From: Bacteroidota bacterium
Lineage (GTDB): Bacteria; Bacteroidota; Bacteroidia; B-17B0; Aurantibacillaceae
DNA: 42,764 bases
Assembly: GCA_013298715.1 (NCBI GenBank)
Contig: JAAFIQ010000026.1
Span: forward strand, 1-42,764
Direction: 5' to 3'
The position numbers and the translations under genes were made by a program. The notes under the pieces are model-generated. The model made no database searches. It was not told the DNA's origin and saw only the letters and a list, made by a program, of their open reading frames with translations. Position 1 is the stretch's first letter. Every line of letters begins with the position of its first letter. Shown here in pieces: positions 19,159 through 32,004 of this stretch.

Positions 19159-19238
19159 ATGAGAAATCACCAACGCCAAATAGTTATTATAACCGAGGTA
19201 TTACTTTTTTTAGCATTCTGTAATGGTTGCAAAAAGTA
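19126..19238 (+). repeat. 113-nt perfect direct repeat, copy 1
   Basis: Identical to 19832-19944. It runs from the last 11 codons of the preceding surface-protein gene, across its stop, through the first 26 or so codons of the lipoprotein gene that starts at 19159. Confidence 0.9.
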
Positions 19239-19683
19239 TTCAGAAAATAATGTTTGGTTTAAAAATCCAAAAAAAATTAATCCTTTTTGTGGGCGTTTAA
19301 GGGAATACAAAGTTAACGGTATTGATAGTTTAAGTTTATTAAATTCTTATTTCGATAAAACAATAAATGTTGTTGCCAAATGGGATACCAAGGTGGCATA
19401 TTTTGTTACTAATAAATTAATAAATAAAGAGAGTATAAGTTTTAATGATGGTGATGGGATTGGAATTGGAGGGTTAAATTTTTCTTTAACTAAAAGAAAT
19501 GATTTAATGAAAATAAATTATTTTCCAGGAATTTATGATGGAAAAATAATCTTTAATAAAAATTTATTCATTAGTTCAGAAACAGAATGGGAAATAATAA
19601 AATTGCCAAAAGCAGGATGCGATTTAAAATTACGTACTACTCTTGGTAATGGGAACAAGTATGAAATATCAATGGGTTATTAA
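19159..19683 (+). CDS. Putative lipoprotein, paralogue 1
   Basis: A 174-residue protein with a lipoprotein-like leader (VLLFLAFCNGC, Cys24) followed by KKY. The rest is a charged, Asn-rich globular domain that I do not recognise. It aligns along its whole length with the 175-residue product at 19865-20392 (shared YKVN.IDSL, W.I/VIKLPK and TTLGNGNKYEI-type stretches). The first ~26 codons are identical in DNA, while the remainder is strongly diverged. It starts directly after the stop of the preceding coiled-coil-tail gene, so the two are probably co-transcribed. Function unknown. Confidence 0.65.
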   Translation: MRNHQRQIVIITEVLLFLAFCNGCKKYSENNVWFKNPKKINPFCGRLREYKVNGIDSLSLLNSYFDKTINVVAKWDTKVAYFVTNKLINKESISFNDGDGIGIGGLNFSLTKRNDLMKINYFPGIYDGKIIFNKNLFISSETEWEIIKLPKAGCDLKLRTTLGNGNKYEISMGY

Positions 19684-19831: not shown

Positions 19832-19944
19832 CAAAAAGAAAACCAACAACTAAAAAACAAGTAAATGAGAAATCACCAACGCCAAATAGTTATTATAACC
19901 GAGGTATTACTTTTTTTAGCATTCTGTAATGGTTGCAAAAAGTA
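19832..19944 (+). repeat. 113-nt perfect direct repeat, copy 2
   Basis: Identical to 19126-19238, 706 nt downstream. In this copy the first 33 nt are the orphaned last codons and stop of the surface-protein gene, with no upstream gene attached; the remainder is the start of the second lipoprotein gene. This shows that the second lipoprotein arose by, or was renewed through, a local duplication including the gene boundary. Confidence 0.9.
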
Positions 19945-20392
19945 CCCTGAAAATAATTTGTGGTTTAAAAATCCTGAAAAACTTGATTTTTTTTACGGAC
20001 AAATTACCAATTACAAAGTAAACGAAATAGATAGTCTGGCCTTGCTTAACGCATACTACAATCCAACGAATACAGAAATAACCAATGGTGATATTAGAAA
20101 GGGTGTAATTATTAATTCTGATGATCATCAAATGAGACAAATTTTTTTCAAAGATAGTCCAAGTGGATATGGACTCTTTGGATTGAGTTATTCATTTGAT
20201 AAGAAAAAAAAGAACCTAAAGATTAAATGCGATTTGAGTTCTTACAATTCAAAAACGTTTTTTCAAAAAAATATTTTTATTGGTGATGATGTAATATGGA
20301 AAGTAGTTAAATTACCAAAGAAACGAGGAGAATTTAAGATAGAAACGACTTTGGCTAACGGCAATAAATATGAAATAACAATAAATAGGTAA
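19865..20392 (+). CDS. Putative lipoprotein, paralogue 2
   Basis: A 175-residue protein, the local paralogue of the preceding gene. The leader is identical (Cys24 in AFCNGCKKY) and the mature domain is clearly related but diverged (for example WKVVKLPKKRGEFKIETTL against WEIIKLPKAGCDLKLRTTL). Upstream is an orphan copy of the 3' end of the coiled-coil-tail gene, and then 150 nt of A-rich sequence without a gene. The family is unknown to me. The pattern of identical 5' end and diverged body fits either selection for variation or recombination limited to the 5' part. Confidence 0.65.
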   Translation: MRNHQRQIVIITEVLLFLAFCNGCKKYPENNLWFKNPEKLDFFYGQITNYKVNEIDSLALLNAYYNPTNTEITNGDIRKGVIINSDDHQMRQIFFKDSPSGYGLFGLSYSFDKKKKNLKIKCDLSSYNSKTFFQKNIFIGDDVIWKVVKLPKKRGEFKIETTLANGNKYEITINR

Positions 20393-21067: not shown

Positions 21068-22453
21068 TTAGTTTGTGTACCACTTCGCAAATTCCATTTT
21101 ACTTTGGTAGTAAAATGATTTTAATGTGAGGGCTATTTTTTGTTTGATATTAATTTTCTTGGTGTGCTTGTAAACCTCTATTTGTAGCCATTTTAAAGCT
21201 TGTTCGTAATACTTTCTTGGATACGTTCGCTTAAAATTAATGTCGCGGTCTGTATTGGTTTCAAAATTATAGTTGGTAGTAATTTTAGTTTCAATTTCGT
21301 TAAATAATTCTGTGCCTTTAATTGGGTAAGTTATAGTTGTGGTATAGAAATCAGGGTTGGCATTAATTAAATGTTGTATCGTTTCTTTTATATCGCTTTT
21401 ATTTTCACCCGGGTAGCCAAGCATAATAAATGTACCCGCCTGTATACCATATTTTTTTGCCAACTTAATTTTTTCTTGCGTGTCTACCACATCCACTCTT
21501 CTATCCATGGCATCAATAATTTTTTGAGAACCGCTTTCAGCGCCCACCCAAACTCTATAACAACCACTTTGTTTTAATAACGCAATAACTTCTTCGTTTA
21601 ATCTATCGGCTCTACTAATTATTTCATAGGGTATTATGGCGTTTTGCTCTATAACTTTTTCTGCAAATTCTTTTAACCATTTATGGCTAATGGTGAACAC
21701 GTCATCTACAAACCAAATCATATCGGGGTTGTAATTTGCCTTAATTAATTTTAATTCTTCAACTACTAATTCAGGTTTTCGTCTTCTATATGTTCCGCCA
21801 TAAACTGCACGGCTGCACCACTTGCAGGTGTAGGGGCAACCACGCATGGTGCTTACACTCATCATACTTAAATTGTGGTGTTTTTTCCAAGTGCTTAAAT
21901 ACTGTGTAAAGTCTATTTTTTTTCTGTTAGGAAAAGGCAAGGCATTTATGTCTTTTATTAATGTTCTTTCTGGCGTAAAAAAAGATTTATTTTCTGCATC
22001 TAAAAAGGCTAAACCGTTTATTGAATTTACATCTAAGTTATTTTTAAGTGCTAAAATTAATTCCAACATGGTTTGTTCACCTTCGCCAATCACCAAATAA
22101 TCAGCACCCGTTTTTAAAAAATTATCAGCGTTATGTCTTAGCTCTGGCCCACCTAAAACTATTTTTGTGTGTTTAAGAAGCTCTTCCGTTTTAATAAATT
22201 TAATAAGCTTAATTACATTGAGCTTCGTCATTAAGTTTACATAAATAGCAATTACATCGGGTCTTGTGTCTTGTAAAAGTTTTTTTTGTGCATCAAAGCT
22301 GCTAAAGGTAGAATCGAATAGTTCGTTTTCAATTTTATTTTCTTCTAAAAAAGCTGATATGTAAAGCAAGCCAAGCGGCACATAGGGCTTCATTATTATT
22401 TTTTCTTTTTCATCTTCGTTTAAGAAGTAACTATGTGTTAGTAGAATTTTCAA
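21068..22453 (-). CDS. B12-binding-domain radical SAM protein (1 of 3)
   Basis: A 461-residue protein. Residues 1-150 are a Rossmann-like B12-binding domain (PYVPLGLLYISAFLE; KIVLGGPELRHNADNFLKTG; DYLVIGEGEQTMLELI) without a clear DxHxxG motif. A radical SAM core follows, with the [4Fe-4S] motif MRGCPYTCKWCSRAVYGGTY (CX3CX2C, around residue 205) and MIWFVDDVFTIS, WVGAESGSQKIIDAMDR, GTFIMLGYPGE. Start is TTG at 22453, supported because the resulting KILLTHSYFL matches the ATG-started KLLFTHSYFL of the third-gene paralogue at 24681. It is the last gene of the operon and starts 1 nt after the methyltransferase stop. Such enzymes methylate or rearrange unreactive carbons; the substrate is unknown. 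Confidence 0.88.
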   Translation of the reverse strand: MKILLTHSYFLNEDEKEKIIMKPYVPLGLLYISAFLEENKIENELFDSTFSSFDAQKKLLQDTRPDVIAIYVNLMTKLNVIKLIKFIKTEELLKHTKIVLGGPELRHNADNFLKTGADYLVIGEGEQTMLELILALKNNLDVNSINGLAFLDAENKSFFTPERTLIKDINALPFPNRKKIDFTQYLSTWKKHHNLSMMSVSTMRGCPYTCKWCSRAVYGGTYRRRKPELVVEELKLIKANYNPDMIWFVDDVFTISHKWLKEFAEKVIEQNAIIPYEIISRADRLNEEVIALLKQSGCYRVWVGAESGSQKIIDAMDRRVDVVDTQEKIKLAKKYGIQAGTFIMLGYPGENKSDIKETIQHLINANPDFYTTTITYPIKGTELFNEIETKITTNYNFETNTDRDINFKRTYPRKYYEQALKWLQIEVYKHTKKINIKQKIALTLKSFYYQSKMEFAKWYTN

Positions 22454-22454
22454 T

Positions 22455-23231
22455 TTACTTCTTTCTTAAAAAAATAATGTAGTGGTCGGCTTTATTAGAT
22501 TGGAAGCTAAAGTTAGCAAAAAGTTTTTCTAAAAAATAAAGGCATGAAAGAAGAAATAAACGTGCTTTAAAAAAATAATTGAGATAACTCGGCGGAATGA
22601 AAAGCCCGATGGGTTTTGTGTCTAAAAACTCAAATTCACCTTTAAAAAGTTCCTCAATTTCGCTTGGTGAATAGTAAAAGGTTTTAAATTCTTGATTATC
22701 AATTTTTGCTAGCACACCATCTCTAGTTTGGCGGCGTTTGTAGAGTTTACTTTTTATTTTTTTGAAGTAAAAATTTTCCCAAATGCAATTATTGCCCATA
22801 ATTACAAAGGCAAGCAAAGCCTTGTTACTTGTTTTGTTTTGCAATGATTTGCTTAATGCGCTTATTTCATTTTTACTTAAACAGTTTAATCCACCAAAAT
22901 TTGAAAACACGAGAGTAAAATCAGATTGTGGTAATTCCTCAACGTGTAAACAGTTTAATGCAATAAAATTTTGAGTGAAGTTTTTGTTTTTTTCTTTTGC
23001 TACTTCAATCATTCCTTCAGAAATATCTGTTCCGAAATAGCTGTGCGTATTCTCTAAAAAATAGCGAGCATCTTCGCCGGTTCCGCAGTTCAATTCAAGT
23101 ATTGCTTCTTTATTTGAAAGGTATTTCTTTAAAAAATAATACACACGTTTTCTTTGCATTATGCCAATTGGCGAGTGAGTAAAATGCGCATCATAAGTTG
23201 AAGCATAGGTATCAAAGGCTTGTTGCTGCAT
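22455..23231 (-). CDS. Class I SAM-dependent methyltransferase
   Basis: A 258-residue protein. The SAM-binding motif I is AILELNCGTGEDARYFLE (about residues 39-56), followed by TDISEGMIEVAKEK (motif for the ribose-binding acidic residue) and FTLVFSNFGGLNCLSK. The N-terminus AFDTYASTYDAHFTHSPIG resembles UbiE/BioC-type small-molecule methyltransferases. The C-terminal part has a basic, hydrophobic tract (FFKARLFLLSCLYFLEKLFA) suggesting contact with membrane or a lipid-like substrate, which is only inference. It overlaps the upstream radical SAM gene by 20 nt and is followed by another after 1 nt. Confidence 0.85.
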   Translation of the reverse strand: MQQQAFDTYASTYDAHFTHSPIGIMQRKRVYYFLKKYLSNKEAILELNCGTGEDARYFLENTHSYFGTDISEGMIEVAKEKNKNFTQNFIALNCLHVEELPQSDFTLVFSNFGGLNCLSKNEISALSKSLQNKTSNKALLAFVIMGNNCIWENFYFKKIKSKLYKRRQTRDGVLAKIDNQEFKTFYYSPSEIEELFKGEFEFLDTKPIGLFIPPSYLNYFFKARLFLLSCLYFLEKLFANFSFQSNKADHYIIFLRKK

Positions 23232-24681
23232 CTTTTTCTAGTTTCTTTAGTATGTTTTTTAAAACAATACTTTGGTAGATTGTTTTTGGCAAAGCAAAGA
23301 ATCGTTTTAAAGGAATTTCGTTGTCGATTTTAAATGAGAGTATATTTTTTAATGCAACAATTCCTTGTTCTCTTCTGTAAACGCTGTGCACGTATCGGTG
23401 TAGTTGTTTGTAAAATTGCGGTTGATATGTGTTTTTAAACAACAAGGCTAAATCGTCGCTGTGTGTCCAATTGGTTTTGGTAACTAAATCGGCTTTTACA
23501 TTTTCGTAAAATTTTGTGTGTGGTAGCGGGTAAGAAACAGAAATGCCTATATCGCTTGGTAATGTTGTTTTTACCATGTTTATAGTAGCTTTAATATCGT
23601 CCATTGTCTCACCTAAATAACCAAATTGTAAAAAGTAGGCCGCTTTTATTTTGTGGTGCTTAAGTAACTTTCGAGCATTAACTATTTCTTCAACTTTGGT
23701 ACCTTTATCCATAGCATCTAAAATTTTTTGAGCGCCGCTTTCTGCGCCCATCCAAACTTCATAGCAACCAGATTTTGCTAAATCATCTACATATTTTTCT
23801 TGCACTAATAAATCGGCACGGCTTTGTATTTTGTATTTAATAGTTATTTTTTCTTTAGCAATTTTGCTGGCAAATTCTTCTACCCAACTTCGTTTCAATC
23901 CAAAAATATCGTCTGCAAACCAAACATACTCTGTATTAAATAATTTTTGTACAAGTTTTATTTCTGCAATTACATGCTCTACGCTACGCATATTGTAAGT
24001 GTTACCGTATATTGGCTTTGCGCACCAATTACATTTGTAAGGGCAACCACGTGTTGTGGCTAAGTTAATTGCAAAAAAATTATTGCGCTCGGCCCATTTA
24101 TTTTTATAAGGTATAATGTTTATCAAATCCCATGCTGGTAGAGGCAATTCGTCTAGTGCTTTACTTACGGCTCTAGGGGCTGTTTTTATAAGTTCTTGCT
24201 CTTTAAAATAGGTTAGTCCTTTTATAGTTGTAAAATCAGTTTGTTTTTGTTTTAATGCGTTAACTAATTCCAATAAGGTATACTCACCTTCACCAATTAT
24301 AACAAAGTCTGAAAAATTAGTTAGGTAAAGTTCTGCATTATCTGCCGCATCACTACTTGTAACAATTATTTTGCAGCCATATTTTTTAGCAATTTCCTGC
24401 ATCTTAAATGCTGCTTCGCGCATATTGCTCAAGCACATTTTTGTTAGGTAATTAAAGCCATCATCGTACACCACTAAAATATCGGGTTTGTAGTTTACCA
24501 GTTCTTTTTCAATCTCTAAAGGATTTTCGCAAAACATGGTGTCAAACAAAGCAACCTCATAATTATTTTGGCGTAGTAAACTTGCCGCAAGTATTGTACC
24601 TAAAGGCGGGTAGGGTTGTGCATGATGAATTTGTTTTACATCAAAAGTTAAAAAGTACGAATGTGTAAAAAGCAATTTCAT
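23212..24681 (-). CDS. B12-binding-domain radical SAM protein (2 of 3)
   Basis: A 489-residue protein. B12-type N-domain with AQPYPPLGTILAASLLRQNN and DFVIIGEGEYTLLELVNALK. Cluster motif TTRGCPYKCNWCAKPIYGNT (CX3CX2C, around residue 212), then EYVWFADDIFGLKRSW and YEVWMGAESGAQKILDAMDK. It is a clear paralogue of the 461-residue protein: same N-terminus, same GESG.QKI.DAMD signature and same domain spacing. It starts with ATG in TAATG overlap with the nucleotidyltransferase stop, which implies translational coupling. The C-terminal ~90 residues are basic and likely specific to the substrate. Confidence 0.88.
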   Translation of the reverse strand: MKLLFTHSYFLTFDVKQIHHAQPYPPLGTILAASLLRQNNYEVALFDTMFCENPLEIEKELVNYKPDILVVYDDGFNYLTKMCLSNMREAAFKMQEIAKKYGCKIIVTSSDAADNAELYLTNFSDFVIIGEGEYTLLELVNALKQKQTDFTTIKGLTYFKEQELIKTAPRAVSKALDELPLPAWDLINIIPYKNKWAERNNFFAINLATTRGCPYKCNWCAKPIYGNTYNMRSVEHVIAEIKLVQKLFNTEYVWFADDIFGLKRSWVEEFASKIAKEKITIKYKIQSRADLLVQEKYVDDLAKSGCYEVWMGAESGAQKILDAMDKGTKVEEIVNARKLLKHHKIKAAYFLQFGYLGETMDDIKATINMVKTTLPSDIGISVSYPLPHTKFYENVKADLVTKTNWTHSDDLALLFKNTYQPQFYKQLHRYVHSVYRREQGIVALKNILSFKIDNEIPLKRFFALPKTIYQSIVLKNILKKLEKDAATSL

Positions 24682-25646
24682 TAGTTAGTAGTTATTTTTT
24701 GGTTTGATGGAATGTGTAGTTCTATTCCAAATCGCTTATTATAATTTTCAATTTTTTTATTGAATGCATCTAATACTTTATTTTGAAAACCTTTTGTATG
24801 GCGTTTACTCACATCTTTTCGCGATCTAAATTGTAGTTCAAAATCTTCATCATTTAAATCAGAAAATTTTTCTCTCCACCGTTTTATTGTTTTAATATGA
24901 AGATAGTTTTCAATTTTATTACCTAATCTCCCATTAAAAATAAATTCTAAAGTTTTTTTAAGGATATTATGTTTTAGATTTAATTCAAACGATTTATTAA
25001 TGTTTTTGTTATCTACAAATTGTTTTAGCCAAGCGTTATTGTTATAAAAATTTTCAGTAGCGGCTGCGTTAACCGTTGGTATTAAATAGGAAAGCTCAAC
25101 TGCGGTAAAATAATTTTGATCTTCTAAGGTACTTATACTTTCATCGATGAAATAATTGGTACACCAATACTTCTTTTTACTTTTTGGTAATAGTTTCCAG
25201 TAAAGAATTAAAAAGGTTCTGCAAATCCAAACACGATTTTTTTTAGCAATAATAAAATAATCAATATCTGAGTTTTCATCAAAGTAATTTTTTGATAGTG
25301 AGCCGGATATATTTATAGAATGCACAAAAGGGAATTGGAACATTTTTTTAGAGTAACGCTGAGCCACACGCATTAAGTCTATAGCACGTTTATTCCCTTT
25401 TTCTCTTCTTACTATGTATTCTGTATTAATTTTTCCTGTAAAATAGTAATCATCCTTTTTTGTAATTAAACCCTGAAAAATTAGATTTGATAAGTACAAA
25501 CCTAACTCTTTGTTATTGTTCGTTTTGCAGTGGAAAGAAAGTTCCTGTTGGTTTAAAGGATAATTAAACACATCAAAATAAAGTAATGCTAAAAGTATTT
25601 GTTTTTCTTTTTCTGAAACGAGAATATTTATTTGCGAACTATCCAT
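24681..25646 (-). CDS. Nucleotidyltransferase-fold (Pol beta superfamily) protein
   Basis: A 321-residue protein. Residues about 105-135 hold the NT-fold signature: SINISGSLSKNYFDENSDID (GS followed by a DxD pair) then YFIIAKKNRVWICR. The N-terminal 100 residues resemble a winged-helix or helical domain (LLALLYFDVFNYPLNQQELS). The C-terminus is basic (QFRSRKDVSKRHTKGFQ). The motif would bind metal and NTP and transfer a nucleotide group to a small molecule or protein; no specific family is claimed. It overlaps the upstream methyltransferase by 8 nt and couples to the downstream radical SAM gene by TAATG, so it belongs to the pathway. Confidence 0.78.
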   Translation of the reverse strand: MDSSQINILVSEKEKQILLALLYFDVFNYPLNQQELSFHCKTNNNKELGLYLSNLIFQGLITKKDDYYFTGKINTEYIVRREKGNKRAIDLMRVAQRYSKKMFQFPFVHSINISGSLSKNYFDENSDIDYFIIAKKNRVWICRTFLILYWKLLPKSKKKYWCTNYFIDESISTLEDQNYFTAVELSYLIPTVNAAATENFYNNNAWLKQFVDNKNINKSFELNLKHNILKKTLEFIFNGRLGNKIENYLHIKTIKRWREKFSDLNDEDFELQFRSRKDVSKRHTKGFQNKVLDAFNKKIENYNKRFGIELHIPSNQKITTN

Positions 25647-26304
25647 TTAATTGGAGTTTGAAGATAAAATTATTCTCCCACTTAATTCTTTTTTCTTTTA
25701 CCAAAACAAAGGTTATTTTGTAACTATTTGCCATTTTTTTTATACGTTCAATCTCGCAATTGCTCGCCAGTATCATAAAAACATTGGTGTTACTATCGGC
25801 GAAGAGATGTAGCTTAGAAAAAAATTTCTCAAAAAATTCACCATTTTTGCCACAATTCCAAGCCAGTTGTGATGTTGTTTTTACCTCATTGAAAAAATAG
25901 GGTGGGTTTACACATATTACATCAGCAATAAATGGTGTTAGGTTGTTAAACACATCACTCTTTATTAATTGTGCCGAATGGCTTTCTCCAAAATTTATTT
26001 CAAAGTTTTTTTTAGCGCAATCAATTGCATTTGTATCCATGTCAACTGTGGTAACTATTGCTTTCGATTTATAAGCTAGCAGGCTTAATAGACCAGAGCC
26101 GCAACCTATTTCAATAAATTTTTTCGACGCTAAATTTTCAGTTTTTAAAAAATCGTAAAAAAAGGTGGAACTAAAAAAGTACTTAGGATGAAACACACCT
26201 TTAAAAATTATTAAACGCAATTCATCATAATTAAATCTTAAATTTTGTTTAAGATAAAGTGATAATAATGGTTTACGAATGTTGTTATTGTAGAACTTTC
26301 GCAT
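25639..26304 (-). CDS. Methyltransferase with NPPY motif
   Basis: A 221-residue class I SAM methyltransferase of the PrmC/TrmN6-like group. Motif I is FIEIGCGSGLLSLLAYKSKA, followed by TVDMDTNAIDCAKKN, and catalytic motif IV is VICVNPPYFFNE. NPPY normally marks N-methylation of a planar nitrogen (Gln side chain or nucleobase). Start chosen at ATG 26304, which shares its A with the TGA of the upstream radical SAM gene (TGATG); an in-frame TTG 3 nt earlier adds one residue. It overlaps the nucleotidyltransferase gene by 8 nt. Being in this operon, it may act on a pathway intermediate instead of on translation factors or tRNA. Confidence 0.82.
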   Translation of the reverse strand: MRKFYNNNIRKPLLSLYLKQNLRFNYDELRLIIFKGVFHPKYFFSSTFFYDFLKTENLASKKFIEIGCGSGLLSLLAYKSKAIVTTVDMDTNAIDCAKKNFEINFGESHSAQLIKSDVFNNLTPFIADVICVNPPYFFNEVKTTSQLAWNCGKNGEFFEKFFSKLHLFADSNTNVFMILASNCEIERIKKMANSYKITFVLVKEKRIKWENNFIFKLQLNG

Positions 26305-27800
26305 CAAAATCCTTCAATTTCTGGCTGGCGGTAACGCCAAACTCGGTGTAAAAAATTAATCTCTTTTGGGTATTTATAAAATCCAAAATTATAACGCCAA
26401 TAACCAAACGTTTTTAAAACAGTTCTTTTGAAGTTGTTTAATCTTACGTCTGAATTGGTTGGATAGCAAGCATTAAGAACAGTTTCAAAATTCTTTATTC
26501 TATCTATCATATAGGGTTTTAACCAAGGTGTTAATGGATTCTTTCTTAAGTCAAAATTTTCCCAAGCAGGATTCATCCAATCTTCTAATTTTTGTGGAAA
26601 CTGAAATCCTGACTTTATAACTGCTTCATATAAGTCTGAACCTTCAGTTGGCACAGGGCTGTATGTATAAATAATTATTTCTGTTTTGGGATTAGCCACT
26701 TTTACTTTTTTAATAAACTCAATATCTTCATTTATTTGAGCAAATACTTTTTCTTCTGTTTCTGCGGGTGTACCAAGCACAAAGGAATATTCAGGAATAA
26801 TATTAAATTTTTTTAAGCGTGTGGCAAAATTAATAATTTGTGCACCTGTTTGTGTGCCGCCTTTATCCATTTTTTTCAGCAACTCATCGTTCCCAGTTTC
26901 AGCGCCAAAAAATATCATTCTACAGCCACTATCACTTAAAATTTTCAACGATTCATCGCTGTATTTGTCCATGGTATCAATGCGCGCTTCACCCCACCAA
27001 TTTATTTTATGTGCTTTAATTAATTTTGCAAAACTTACAGCTCGTTTTTCTGAAACAAAAAAATTATTGTCGTGAAATTCTACTGAATCGCCTTTGTATT
27101 GTTCAATTAATTTTTTTACATCTTTATATATGCTTTCGGCGGATTTGCCTTTCCATCGGGCATTGTAAATAGGAACTACAGCACAGAAAGAACACGTAAA
27201 TGGACAACCAAAACTGCTATGGTAACCAATAGTTTTTTTACCCAAAAAAGTTCTCGGTAAATAATTTTGTAAATTATAAATTGAGTTTAGTTTATCATAA
27301 GGTAATTCGGGCAAGGTATCTTGATTGAGTAATTCTTCTTTAGCAGTTTTAATTATTTTTCCATCTTCAACAAAAATTAAATTTTTTATATCGTGTAAAC
27401 TTTCATTTTTCCCGATTGAATTTAATAACCTCGGAAAAGTTACGTCTCCCGGCCCATTAATAATATAGTCTACAAACCCCGATTCAATGCAGACTTTATA
27501 TTGATTAGATGCGAAATAACCACCCCACACAATTTTTATATTAGGGTAGAGTTCTTTAATTTTTTTACTGTAAGGAATTGCCTGTTTTAACTGCGGGCCG
27601 GGCATAACTGTAACACCAAAGCAATCAATAGTGTTGTTTCGTAAATAATTTTCAAGTTTAGACCATGGATCTTGTTCTAAGTTGCCATCTACAAAAAACC
27701 AATTATGCTCTTTATCAATACTAGCAGCAACCTGAAGTATGCTATTTGGTAATCGTGGATTGTAGGTTAAAGCCCGAGGATTGAAGAGCAGTATGTTCAT
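26304..27800 (-). CDS. B12-binding-domain radical SAM protein (3 of 3)
   Basis: A 498-residue protein. The N-terminal domain begins MNILLFNPRALTYNPRLPNS and includes VWGGYFASNQYKVCIESGF and INGPGDVTFPRLL. The radical SAM motif is SSFGCPFTCSFCAVVPIYN (CX3CX2C, around residue 200), followed by VEFHDNNFFVSEKRA, IFFGAETGNDELLKKMDKG and YSFVLGTPAETEE. It is more distant from the other two radical SAM proteins than they are from each other, and resembles the HpnJ/BchE-like group. The C-terminus has aromatic and basic residues (YWRYNFGFYKYPKE). First gene of the tightly coupled six; 21 nt downstream of the beta-barrel gene. Confidence 0.88.
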   Translation of the reverse strand: MNILLFNPRALTYNPRLPNSILQVAASIDKEHNWFFVDGNLEQDPWSKLENYLRNNTIDCFGVTVMPGPQLKQAIPYSKKIKELYPNIKIVWGGYFASNQYKVCIESGFVDYIINGPGDVTFPRLLNSIGKNESLHDIKNLIFVEDGKIIKTAKEELLNQDTLPELPYDKLNSIYNLQNYLPRTFLGKKTIGYHSSFGCPFTCSFCAVVPIYNARWKGKSAESIYKDVKKLIEQYKGDSVEFHDNNFFVSEKRAVSFAKLIKAHKINWWGEARIDTMDKYSDESLKILSDSGCRMIFFGAETGNDELLKKMDKGGTQTGAQIINFATRLKKFNIIPEYSFVLGTPAETEEKVFAQINEDIEFIKKVKVANPKTEIIIYTYSPVPTEGSDLYEAVIKSGFQFPQKLEDWMNPAWENFDLRKNPLTPWLKPYMIDRIKNFETVLNACYPTNSDVRLNNFKRTVLKTFGYWRYNFGFYKYPKEINFLHRVWRYRQPEIEGF

Positions 27801-27821: not shown

Positions 27822-28817
27822 TTAATTTTTTTGTAAACTCGTGTTAGGGTCTGGCCTCAATTTTTTTTCTTTGTACGGAATTAAATAACCAATTCTAAAT
27901 CCAAACGTGCCCGATAGACCGAAGTTAGGCACTCTGCTAAAACCATAGTAATTGCTAATTCTTGAATAATCATTAACATAAGAATAATTATAGTTAATAG
28001 AGTTGAAAAATGGATTTACTTTGAAATCAGGATTTGATAATTTTTGTGTTTGGCCCGTGAAGCCAACACCAGCGTATACATCCATGGTTAAAATATTTCC
28101 TAAAATTGTTTGATAACCTAAATTAACAAAGCCACCGTAAGCTGATGAAGTTAAGTCTGAGGTTTTAGTTACCGAAATTGCTGGAACAGAGTAACTGCTT
28201 TGGGAATAATAAGTAGCCTTCAAATTATTATATTGCAAAAAAGAATAAGCCAAATCAAATTTGGCGTAGGCGCCTTTTAGTGGATGCGCAAGTTTTACTC
28301 CTTTAACAGAATTGCTTGGACTTAGTAAAAATTTAATACCTGGTTTAATATATACACCGTTCATACCATCGGAAATACGATTAGCACCATTATTCGTTAA
28401 AGTATAATATTCGCGATTAATTTGGGAAGTTATGTAACCAACTTGTACGTCTAAATTAATACCTAAGCGAATAACTTTCTCATACGCCAAAGAAATGTGA
28501 TTAAGCCCAATGGCAAACGGATGGATTTTAATTGCCTCTCTGTTTTGTAATATAGATTCATGTGAATTCACTAATTCCATTTCATCTTTGTTAATGTACT
28601 CAGTATATCCGTTTTTAAGTGTGTATTTAATAACTGAAGATGTTGCACAAAAAACGATTGGTCCATCACCAAATAACTTGTATTTAATTTCGTATTCGCT
28701 TATTTCGAGCAATTTACAAGCAATTTTTTTGTTTTTTTCAAAATACAATGTATCTGATTGTGCCTTTATGCAAAGATTAAAAACAATACAAGTTGTAAGT
28801 AAGAATAACTTTTTCAT
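27822..28817 (-). CDS. Outer-membrane beta-barrel-like protein
   Basis: A 331-residue protein. Signal peptide to CIKAQ (residue 19). A short N-terminal domain (residues 20-90) with SDTLYFEKNKKIACKLLEIS and EIKYKLFGDGPI resembles a domain found in many Bacteroidota envelope proteins. The remainder alternates hydrophobic and polar residues in strands (INLDVQVGYITSQ, GAYAKFDLAYSFLQYN, TMDVYAGVGFTGQ, FGFRIGYLIPY), as expected of an 8-stranded barrel. It lies 21 nt upstream of the first radical SAM gene in the same direction, so it may be the first gene of that operon, although its product does not suggest a shared role. Confidence 0.72.
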   Translation of the reverse strand: MKKLFLLTTCIVFNLCIKAQSDTLYFEKNKKIACKLLEISEYEIKYKLFGDGPIVFCATSSVIKYTLKNGYTEYINKDEMELVNSHESILQNREAIKIHPFAIGLNHISLAYEKVIRLGINLDVQVGYITSQINREYYTLTNNGANRISDGMNGVYIKPGIKFLLSPSNSVKGVKLAHPLKGAYAKFDLAYSFLQYNNLKATYYSQSSYSVPAISVTKTSDLTSSAYGGFVNLGYQTILGNILTMDVYAGVGFTGQTQKLSNPDFKVNPFFNSINYNYSYVNDYSRISNYYGFSRVPNFGLSGTFGFRIGYLIPYKEKKLRPDPNTSLQKN

Positions 28818-29565: not shown

Positions 29566-32004
29566 ATGTATCAGTTAAAACAAATTGCAGAAATTACAAA
29601 CTCAACTTACGTTGGCAACAACAATTACAAAGTAAATCAGTACTTAACTGATAGTAGAAATTTACGTAATGCCGAAAACGTTTTGTTTATTGCAATAAAC
29701 ACCCAGCGTAATAATGGTCACAATTATATAAATCAATTAATTGAAAAAGGGGTAACTTCTTTTTTAATAAACGGAGGCGAGTATGATGCAAGTAATGCGC
29801 CTTCTCATATTAGTTTTATTGTTTGCAATAATACGTTGACTGCGCTTCAATCCTTGGCAAGTTATCACAGAAAACAGTTTACGATACCAGTAATTGGTAT
29901 TACAGGAAGCAATGGCAAAACAGTTGTAAAGGAGTGGTTATATCAACTATTAAAATCAAAATACACAATTTGCCGTAGCCCAAAAAGTTATAATTCACAA
30001 TTGGGTGTGCCATTAAGCGTTTTAAATTTAAATGAATTGCATAACCTCGCTATTTTTGAAGCCGGTATTTCTAAACCGCAAGAAATGCCACAACTTGCAA
30101 AAATAATTCAACCTACAATAGGTATTTTTACCTCAATTGGAGACGCACATAGTGAAAGTTTTTCAACGATTGAACACAAAATTGAAGAGAAGGCGTTATT
30201 AATGCGAGAAACTGCTCTTGCGTTTGTTAATGGAGTTTCAAGGCAGTCTACACATTTCAAAAACAACAAAACCGTTTTTATAAATACAGAAAATGCTGAT
30301 GTTACTTATACTTTCAAAAATAATTTATTACATTATAATTCTGTAGCAGTAAATCATGGCTTTACGATTCCTTTTAAAGATGAGGCCTCTGTAAAAAATT
30401 GTGTTACCTGTATCACAATATTACTACATTTTAATTATACTACAAACGAAATTCAACACGGTTTAAATTTATTGCAACCAATAGCTTTAAGACTAGAGGT
30501 AAAGAATGGGGTTAATAATTCAATCATAATAAATGATTTTTACAATTCGGATAGCGATTCTTTAAAAATTGCTTTGGATTTTTTGCAGCAACAGCACCGA
30601 AGAAATAAAAAAGTAGTTGTGGTGTCAGATATAGAGCAGTCAGGTTTGTTACCAAATCAATTATACAAAAAATTAGCCGATTTATTTCATTCTTCTCAAA
30701 TAGATTTGGTGGTTGGTATTGGAAATGAAATTGAAAAATTCAAATTTTTATTTAAAGCCAATTCATTATTTTTTAAAGATACTGCAAACTTTTTACAACA
30801 GTTCAAACTTATAAATTATTTATTTTCTGATAGTACAATTTTGCTTAAAGGTGCTCGTAGTTATGGTTTTGAAGCAATAAGCGCTTTGTTACAACAAAAA
30901 AGTCATGATACCGTTTTTGAAGTTAATCTAACCAAGCTAACCAATAACATAAATTATTTTAGAGGAAACATTTCAAACACTACCAAAATAATGGCAATGG
31001 TAAAAGCCACAGGTTATGGTAGTGGTAGCATTGAAATTGCAAAAACCTTACAGCACGCTGGTATAAATTACCTGGCGGTTGCTTACGCCGATGAAGGGGT
31101 AGAATTAAGGCAAGCAAATATTAATTTACCAATAATGGTAATGAATCCTGAAACGGATGCCTTGGAAGACATTATTACTTATAATCTAGAACCAGAAATT
31201 TATTCATTTAAGTTGTTAAATGAATTCGTTTCAAAGCTCGATCAAATGGGAGTTGTTAACTCATTTCCAATTCATTTAAAAATTGATACGGGCATGCGGA
31301 GGCTTGGTTTTGAGCCGAGTGAAGTTGACGAATTAATTAATAAACTAAAAAGTTGTTCTACAATAAAAGTTGTTTCAATTTTCTCGCATTTAGCGGCTAG
31401 TGATAATTCAGATTTAGATGAATTTACTAACCATCAAATAAGCGTATTTAAAACTTGTACTTCTAAAATTGAAACAGCCCTTGGTTATTCTACAATAAAA
31501 CATATTTGCAACAGTGGTGCTATAACACGTTTTAAACAGGCGCACTTTGATATGGTACGTTTAGGAATAGGCATGTATGGCGTGGGAGTTAATAATTATG
31601 AACAAAAGTTGTTAGAGAATGTTGGTACGCTCAGAACAAAAATCTCACAAATTAAAATCGTTGAGGCGGGTGAAACCGTAGGCTACAACCGAAACGGAAA
31701 AACTGATAAACGAACGAAGATTGCAACAATACCAATTGGTTATGCCGATGGGTTTAGCAGGTTGCTTGGCAATGGCAGGCATGGTGTTTATATTGATGGC
31801 AGTTTTATAAAAACTATAGGTAACATTTGTATGGACATGTGTATGATTGATGTTACAGAAATAAACTGTAACGAAGGAGATGAGGTTATAATTTTTCAAA
31901 CAATACAACAAATTAACGATTTGTCTGCTGCTATAAGTAGTATTCCTTACGAAGTACTTACTAGTGTTTCTTCACGTGTTAAGAGGGTTTATGTACAAGA
32001 ATAA
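29566..32004 (+). CDS. murF-alr: Bifunctional UDP-MurNAc-tripeptide-D-Ala-D-Ala ligase / alanine racemase
   Basis: An 812-residue fusion that is a hallmark of Bacteroidota. Residues 1-440 are MurF: N-domain DSRNLRNAENVLFIA, P-loop VIGITGSNGKTVVKEWL, and NDFYNSDSDSLKIALDFL. Residues about 447-812 are alanine racemase: PLP lysine Lys480 in MAMVKATGYGSGS, DTGMRRLGFEPSEV, HICNSGAITRF, FDMVRLGIGMYGV, the catalytic Tyr in GETVGYNRNG (about residue 707) and IPIGYADGFSRLLGNG. The protein makes D-Ala and adds D-Ala-D-Ala to the peptidoglycan precursor. In MurF the Mur signature ends GKTVVKE where GKTTTKE is common; the Walker Lys and Thr are kept, so activity is expected. Confidence 0.95.
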   Translation: MYQLKQIAEITNSTYVGNNNYKVNQYLTDSRNLRNAENVLFIAINTQRNNGHNYINQLIEKGVTSFLINGGEYDASNAPSHISFIVCNNTLTALQSLASYHRKQFTIPVIGITGSNGKTVVKEWLYQLLKSKYTICRSPKSYNSQLGVPLSVLNLNELHNLAIFEAGISKPQEMPQLAKIIQPTIGIFTSIGDAHSESFSTIEHKIEEKALLMRETALAFVNGVSRQSTHFKNNKTVFINTENADVTYTFKNNLLHYNSVAVNHGFTIPFKDEASVKNCVTCITILLHFNYTTNEIQHGLNLLQPIALRLEVKNGVNNSIIINDFYNSDSDSLKIALDFLQQQHRRNKKVVVVSDIEQSGLLPNQLYKKLADLFHSSQIDLVVGIGNEIEKFKFLFKANSLFFKDTANFLQQFKLINYLFSDSTILLKGARSYGFEAISALLQQKSHDTVFEVNLTKLTNNINYFRGNISNTTKIMAMVKATGYGSGSIEIAKTLQHAGINYLAVAYADEGVELRQANINLPIMVMNPETDALEDIITYNLEPEIYSFKLLNEFVSKLDQMGVVNSFPIHLKIDTGMRRLGFEPSEVDELINKLKSCSTIKVVSIFSHLAASDNSDLDEFTNHQISVFKTCTSKIETALGYSTIKHICNSGAITRFKQAHFDMVRLGIGMYGVGVNNYEQKLLENVGTLRTKISQIKIVEAGETVGYNRNGKTDKRTKIATIPIGYADGFSRLLGNGRHGVYIDGSFIKTIGNICMDMCMIDVTEINCNEGDEVIIFQTIQQINDLSAAISSIPYEVLTSVSSRVKRVYVQE

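Follow-up and report, generated by a model that had tools for sequence, protein, structure and literature searches.

A 42,764-nt stretch of a Bacteroidota bacterium genome (contig JAAFIQ010000026.1 of assembly GCA_013298715.1, family Aurantibacillaceae; the whole stretch is referred to below as the window) carries six tightly packed genes, designated A to F, which encode three radical S-adenosylmethionine (SAM) proteins, two methyltransferases and a protein with a nucleotidyltransferase-like core. We found that this set recurs in other Bacteroidota genomes with a largely preserved order, and that genes for glycan assembly are far commoner beside it in relatives than in control stretches. The link to glycans is the best-supported step of our interpretation, and a well-supported one. 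We lean towards the view that A–F constitute a tailoring module of a surface glycan of Bacteroidota, be it an exopolysaccharide, an O-antigen-like chain or another lipid-linked oligosaccharide; the role of the set is probably to produce or modify an unusual building block resembling a sugar.

The six open reading frames (ORFs) occupy the minus strand from position 27800 to 21068 and, according to the window's ORF listing, are transcribed in the order A–B–C–D–E–F. Gene A (26304–27800) encodes a 498-residue cobalamin-type (class B) radical SAM protein with Pfam Radical_SAM and B12-binding domains; gene B (25639–26307), a small methyltransferase of 222 residues, MTS/PrmC-like, with an NPPY motif and a match to Pfam MTS; gene C (24681–25646), a 321-residue protein with an N-terminal winged helix followed by a Pol-beta-like nucleotidyltransferase core; gene D (23212–24681), a 489-residue radical SAM protein with a putative, divergent cobalamin domain; gene E (22455–23231), a 258-residue, UbiE-like class I SAM methyltransferase matching Pfam Methyltransf_25; and gene F (21068–22453), a 461-residue cobalamin-type radical SAM protein paralogous to D. 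A and B overlap by 4 nt if B starts at its TTG, or meet at TGATG if the next ATG is the start; overlaps of 8, 1 and 20 nt follow at B/C, C/D and D/E, and a single nucleotide separates E from F. These coordinates and junctions bear out the original prediction, made from the sequence alone, that all six genes overlap or abut. A scan for promoters and terminators was uninformative, its counts being those of shuffled sequence (44 versus 40.3 and 4 versus 4.0 respectively).

Relatives of C are present in 37 of the 87 genomes of the host's family, the host included, and in five of its ten genera; identity to relatives in other genomes is 32–48% for C and 61–72% for A. To describe gene order, we used as family loci the stretches around C from 36 genomes other than the host (one genome has two C genes), and as non-family loci those obtained by scanning GTDB contigs with gene A, from which the best 80 of at least 564 relatives were taken and 17 dropped because the last 300 residues of A were the same as at a family locus, leaving 63. 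The non-family loci include Crocinitomix catalasitica, Roseivirga, Niastella, Mucilaginibacter kameinonensis and Ignavibacterium metagenome-assembled genomes. Counted over the loci where both genes were found, adjacency among the 36 family loci was 29/30 for A–B, 29/32 for B–C, 28/32 for C–D, 23/27 for D–E and 16/16 for E–F, the corresponding figures for the 63 other loci being 51/54, 5/27, 17/30, 28/32 and 17/17. B and C are thus rarely adjacent outside the family, where the set falls mostly into two blocks, A–B and C–D–E(–F). All six genes lay within the stretch at 15 of the 36 family loci and 11 of the 63 others; cultivated relatives bearing the complete set include Niastella yeongjuensis (L142) and Crocinitomix catalasitica (L084). 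This recurring order in other genomes indicates that the gene packing seen in the window is more than chance. At one locus (L035, G031:C35) there are two divergent C genes, encoded on opposite strands some 8 kb from each other; D follows one of them, and A and B precede the other. At another (L085), a contig labelled Verrucomicrobia bears all six gene families in split blocks, either through misbinning or through gene transfer out of the Bacteroidota.

Genome-wide sampling gave a concordant picture of co-occurrence. In a phylum sample of 395 genomes, host included, 17 carried A (E 1e-150) and 31 carried C (E 1e-5), and every one of the 17 A-bearing genomes also has C, though in G168, G262 and G479 the match is weak (E about 1e-28). 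Setting the host aside, A and C share a contig in all 16 of the A-bearing genomes, with first coordinates 2.6–19 kb apart; the hypergeometric p for their co-occurrence is about 1e-20 without the host, relatedness being ignored. In a class sample, again of 395 genomes, D was detected in 56 (E 1e-120), spread over 35 of 197 genera, C in 63 (E 1e-20) and both in 55, the sole D-bearing genome without C being one of 57% completeness. In 45 of these 55 genomes C immediately precedes D, within 300 nt; in five the two are within 20 kb of each other, and in the remaining five they are on different contigs. The genes also diverge in parallel, in correlations uncorrected for species history: r is 0.70 for A–B, 0.59 for A–C, 0.71 for A–D, 0.79 for A–F, 0.78 for C–D and 0.86 for D–F, dropping to 0.46 for A–E and C–E, with a permutation p of 0.001 for each of these pairs. 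Order, co-occurrence (17/17 for A with C, 55/56 for D with C) and correlated divergence together uphold the earlier proposal that the six genes act as a set.

In relatives, the set keeps company with genes for making and moving glycans. Neighbours assigned by Pfam include Glycos_transf_1, Glycos_transf_2, GT87, Wzz, Polysacc_synt (Wzx-like) and Wzy_C, together with ABC transporter, Bac_transf, GNAT, polysaccharide deacetylase, FkbM methyltransferase domain and SPASM radical SAM proteins. At least one cluster of the glycosyltransferase, Wzx, Wzy or Wzz type was present at 30 of the 36 family loci and 44 of the 63 others as against 2 of 40 control stretches, and at least two at 14/36, 24/63 and 0/40 respectively; the excess over control gives one-sided Fisher p values of 6e-13 and 1e-11, relatedness ignored. 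As controls, eight family genomes supplied 40 stretches of 20 kb, all from long contigs, placed at round coordinates clear of C and scored by the same matching. Because family neighbourhoods served to define the marker clusters, the family figure is partly circular, though same-locus matches were left out; the 63 other loci had no part in defining them. The control count of 2/40 slightly raises the odds of the glycan reading and slightly lowers those of a non-glycan product. The original prediction had stated that no glycosyltransferase gene accompanies the six and that they fit no standard cluster type: the former is true of the window but not of relatives, with their 30/36 and 44/63 loci, and the latter is not supported, as relatives place the set in a polysaccharide or glycoconjugate neighbourhood far above control.

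The host itself appears to have a split version of a cluster that is kept together in relatives. When four companion families were searched in its genome, the best copies of all four mapped to a single other contig, C11, within 22 kb: a GT87 protein (C11:27110–28621, 45% identity), a flippase-like membrane protein (C11:43131–44255, 25%), a CxxCH lipoprotein (C11:46524–47621, 40%, with two in-frame TAA codons) and a SPASM radical SAM protein (C11:47666–48739, 67%), with Acyl_transf_3, GT2 and SGNH hydrolase genes nearby. At one related locus (L044), A is immediately preceded by GT87, acyltransferase, flippase-like protein and GT2 genes in a row, to which the C11 genes are 44, 49, 45 and 33% identical respectively; at another (L037), the lipoprotein and SPASM protein are upstream of A with two genes between, the SPASM protein sharing 86% identity with that of C11. 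These matches to genes upstream of A point to the apparent split. Because A–F are about 15 kb or more from the window ends and the C11 companions about 25 kb or more from the ends of C11, the two loci are at least about 40 kb apart. Compared with Wzx/Wzy polysaccharide clusters, then, the A–F sets of relatives are alike in lying among such genes, whereas in the window A–F stand apart, their companions being on C11, and the combination of glycosyltransferase, flippase and polymerase at one locus that defines such a cluster was not found beside them. The lipoprotein belongs to a family of about 380 residues found near gene A at L037, L049, L067 and other loci, with a lipoprotein- or signal-like N-terminus; a single heme-c-type CxxCH motif is present in 32 of 33 rows, or 25 of the 26 distinct ones, the exception being a 124-residue fragment. 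Three members scanned had no match in the Pfam or NCBIfam library searched.

We then considered what the six proteins might do. All three radical SAM proteins match Pfam Radical_SAM above cut-off (A, 50.3 bits; D, 61.8; F, 87.6), and their CxxxCxxC iron–sulfur motif is conserved in every aligned row (51/51 for A, 27/27 each for D and F). The B12-binding domains attributed to all three in the original prediction are firm for A (35.5 bits against a cut-off of 32.1) and F (50.6 bits), the match of D falling under the Pfam cut-off. D and F are 35% identical; A is more distant, with 25% identity to F over 396 columns. The predicted structure of A (mean predicted local distance difference test score, pLDDT, of 85, dropping below 50 at residues 196–215, which contain the CxxxCxxC motif) indicates the architecture of cobalamin-dependent radical SAM enzymes: it matches OxsB, AprD4, CysS, TsrM, MgmA and TokK with Z 19.5–23.4 over 371–433 residues at 11–16% identity, led by OxsB (Z 23.4, root-mean-square deviation (rmsd) 3.6, 424 residues) and AprD4 (Z 23.1). 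A is modelled, like these enzymes (AprD4 being grouped with them by fold match), with a Rossmann domain joined to a radical SAM barrel. In sequence searches of the PDB, AprD4 was the best match of A (E 2.5e-9), while D and F found MgmA (9ccb) first and AprD4 second. Since the fold neighbours of A comprise both methylases and a diol dehydratase, its fold leaves the reaction undecided.

Among the NCBIfam matches listed (the best 25 of 32, 32 and 40 for B, D and F respectively), none reached cut-off for any of A–F, and C had none at all. F gave the best scores to the ladderane-type family (TIGR04072, 139.5 versus 360), HpnJ (130.1 versus 577.6) and HpnR (112.7 versus 650), all short of the equivalog cut-offs, and assignment to BchE or PhpK was likewise rejected, the highest score being that of F to PhpK (168 versus 600). 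A plasmid-borne origin was also set aside, as a search of 72,556 plasmid records with gene A, the one gene used, yielded nothing at E 1e-50.

Pfam supports the gene classes first proposed for B, C and E, though weakly for C, whose scores to NTP_transf_2 (PF01909, 19.3 versus a cut-off of 21) and PF18765 (17.0 versus 26.9) are both under threshold; for this reason we describe it as having a Pol-beta-type core and file it in neither family. Residues D127 and D129 are invariant in 44 aligned rows, 40 of which show a GS...DxD-type catalytic motif pattern, and the predicted structure (pLDDT 94) has a winged helix followed by the nucleotidyltransferase core. A second structure aligner placed this model alongside ANT(4')/kanamycin nucleotidyltransferase (Z 8.6–8.9, rmsd 2.9, 110–113 residues), to which C is likened by its core and GS...DxD-type motif and from which it differs in having the N-terminal winged helix. 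The suggested relation to sugar nucleotidyltransferases is modest, given that Foldseek returned nothing at E 0.001 or better and that many unrelated DNA-binding domains, aligning through the winged helix, score as high (Z 8–9.3); a PDB sequence search likewise gave no significant match (best E 0.15). B matches MTS with 57.5 bits and has NPP[YF] in 28 of 28 rows, a motif that suggests N-methylation; E matches Methyltransf_25 with 47.0 bits.

A mechanism consistent with these assignments can be sketched. C would attach a nucleoside monophosphate to a sugar-like substrate, to activate it or to serve as a handle; D, its closest partner, and the paralogue F would place substituents on carbon, most probably methyls donated by methylcobalamin; A would carry out another radical step; E and B would attach O- and N-methyl groups; and glycosyltransferases, flippase, and polymerase or ligase would then build and export the glycan. 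The gene set, its order, its co-occurrence, the excess of glycan neighbours and the fold class of A are observed; the kinship of C with sugar nucleotidyltransferases, the substrate, methylation as the radical reaction, the sequence of the steps and what C does are inferred. The stepwise C- and N-methylation with nucleotide activation originally envisaged is best regarded as a reasonable guess. Its nucleotide part has a published parallel in fosfomycin biosynthesis, where Fom3 methylates cytidylyl-2-hydroxyethylphosphonate and FomD then removes cytidine monophosphate (PMC8992657, PMC8158854); the likeness to Fom1/Fom3/FomD would lie in pairing a nucleotidyl-transfer step, for C a putative one, with a B12-dependent radical SAM methylase. 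It is the C–D pairing that most favours the handle idea. Taken to its fullest form, C would add a transient nucleotide handle to a sugar or sugar-like acid that all three B12 radical SAM enzymes then C-methylate, yielding a multiply C-branched, N- and O-methylated sugar that many environmental Bacteroidota would carry on their surface, in effect a fosfomycin-type strategy applied to a structural glycan; we offer this version only tentatively. A–F differ from known cobalamin radical SAM systems in having three such proteins, D putatively so, in one operon and in the low identity (11–16%) of A.

Several alternatives, which overlap with the glycan-tailoring reading and with each other so that their likelihoods need not add up to one, were weighed against it. 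The one we take most seriously, though still as an unlikely one, is that A, D and F dehydrate, epimerise or rearrange a sugar ring in the manner of AprD4 or OxsB, leaving methylation to B and E. OxsB, which catalyses a ring contraction, and AprD4 head the fold list of A, and AprD4 is its best PDB sequence match and the second for F and D; however, the methylases CysS, TsrM and MgmA trail by no more than 2 Z units in the same fold list, and TokK by no more than 4, and MgmA comes first by sequence for D and F. A regulatory role for C, in which the winged helix and MNT-like domain nucleotidylate a partner protein or sense the pathway, seems to us rather doubtful: the resemblance of the winged helix to DNA-binding domains and the presence of MNT antitoxins among weak Foldseek matches (none at E 0.001 or better) would fit, but 55 of the 56 genomes with D also have C, directly upstream in 45, both catalytic-type aspartates are invariant, and the nucleotidyltransferases found by the second aligner are sugar-modifying. 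Decoration of the outer glycan of the general protein O-glycosylation system of Bacteroidota, instead of a polysaccharide, is improbable. As described in a review (PMC12871550), outer-glycan loci combine a wzx flippase with many glycosyltransferases and methyl groups occur, the timing of their addition being unsettled, but Wzz and Wzy_C genes adjoin A in some relatives and point to a polymer, and the main text of the review nowhere uses the word 'radical'. Finally, a pathway to a small-molecule natural product, lipid or cofactor unrelated to glycans would fit the appearance of HpnJ, BchE, PhpK and ladderane-type profiles near the top of the NCBIfam lists for A, D and F; with those scores far below cut-off and glycan genes as neighbours well above control, we consider this very improbable.

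The same weighing has to include points that tell against a glycan-tailoring module built on methylation. At 21 of the 63 non-family loci the stretch shows none of C–F, with A and B only at 16 and A only at five, so A–B may act apart; and the divergence correlations take no account of species history. No recognised glycan gene was in the stretch at 6 of the 36 family loci and 19 of the 63 others, some of these lying on short contigs, and no glycosyltransferase adjoins A–F within the window. On C11, the flippase-like neighbour was named by eye and has no Pfam match, and the two in-frame TAA codons of the lipoprotein gene suggest that the companion locus may be decaying. As for the chemistry, the B12-binding score of D is 19.8 bits against a cut-off of 32.1, and DxHxxG, a marker of histidine ligation in other B12 proteins, was absent from the first 200 residues in all rows (0/51 for A, 0/27 each for D and F). 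Methylation is not assured either, as AprD4, a diol dehydratase, is both tied for nearest fold and the best PDB sequence match of A.

Some other features of the window deserve mention. Located 21 nt upstream of A on the minus strand, a candidate leader gene (27822–28817) for a 331-residue beta-barrel-like protein may belong to the same transcript as A–F; its DUF3575 match (17.1 bits) is under the Pfam cut-off, and no ORF of the 36 family loci clusters with it. Tandem genes at 19159–19683 and 19865–20392 encode lipoprotein-like proteins of 174/175 residues whose first 27 residues are identical and the rest diverged, and an 812-residue ORF at 29566–32004 resembles, by eye, a MurF–alanine racemase fusion.

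The enzyme classes and the type of cluster described here are already known, but the A–F combination is unnamed in the Pfam and NCBIfam matches, and we found no description of the set in the open-access literature as judged by titles and the beginnings of abstracts, a coverage outside which most subscription papers fall. C and D occur together in 55 of the 395 genomes sampled from the host's class, about one in seven, and because they are so tightly paired, the nucleotide-handle idea could be put to the test with just these two proteins in purified form. Should the set indeed decorate a glycan, it would offer a source, open to experiment, of carbon-linked modifications of the sugars on bacterial surfaces.

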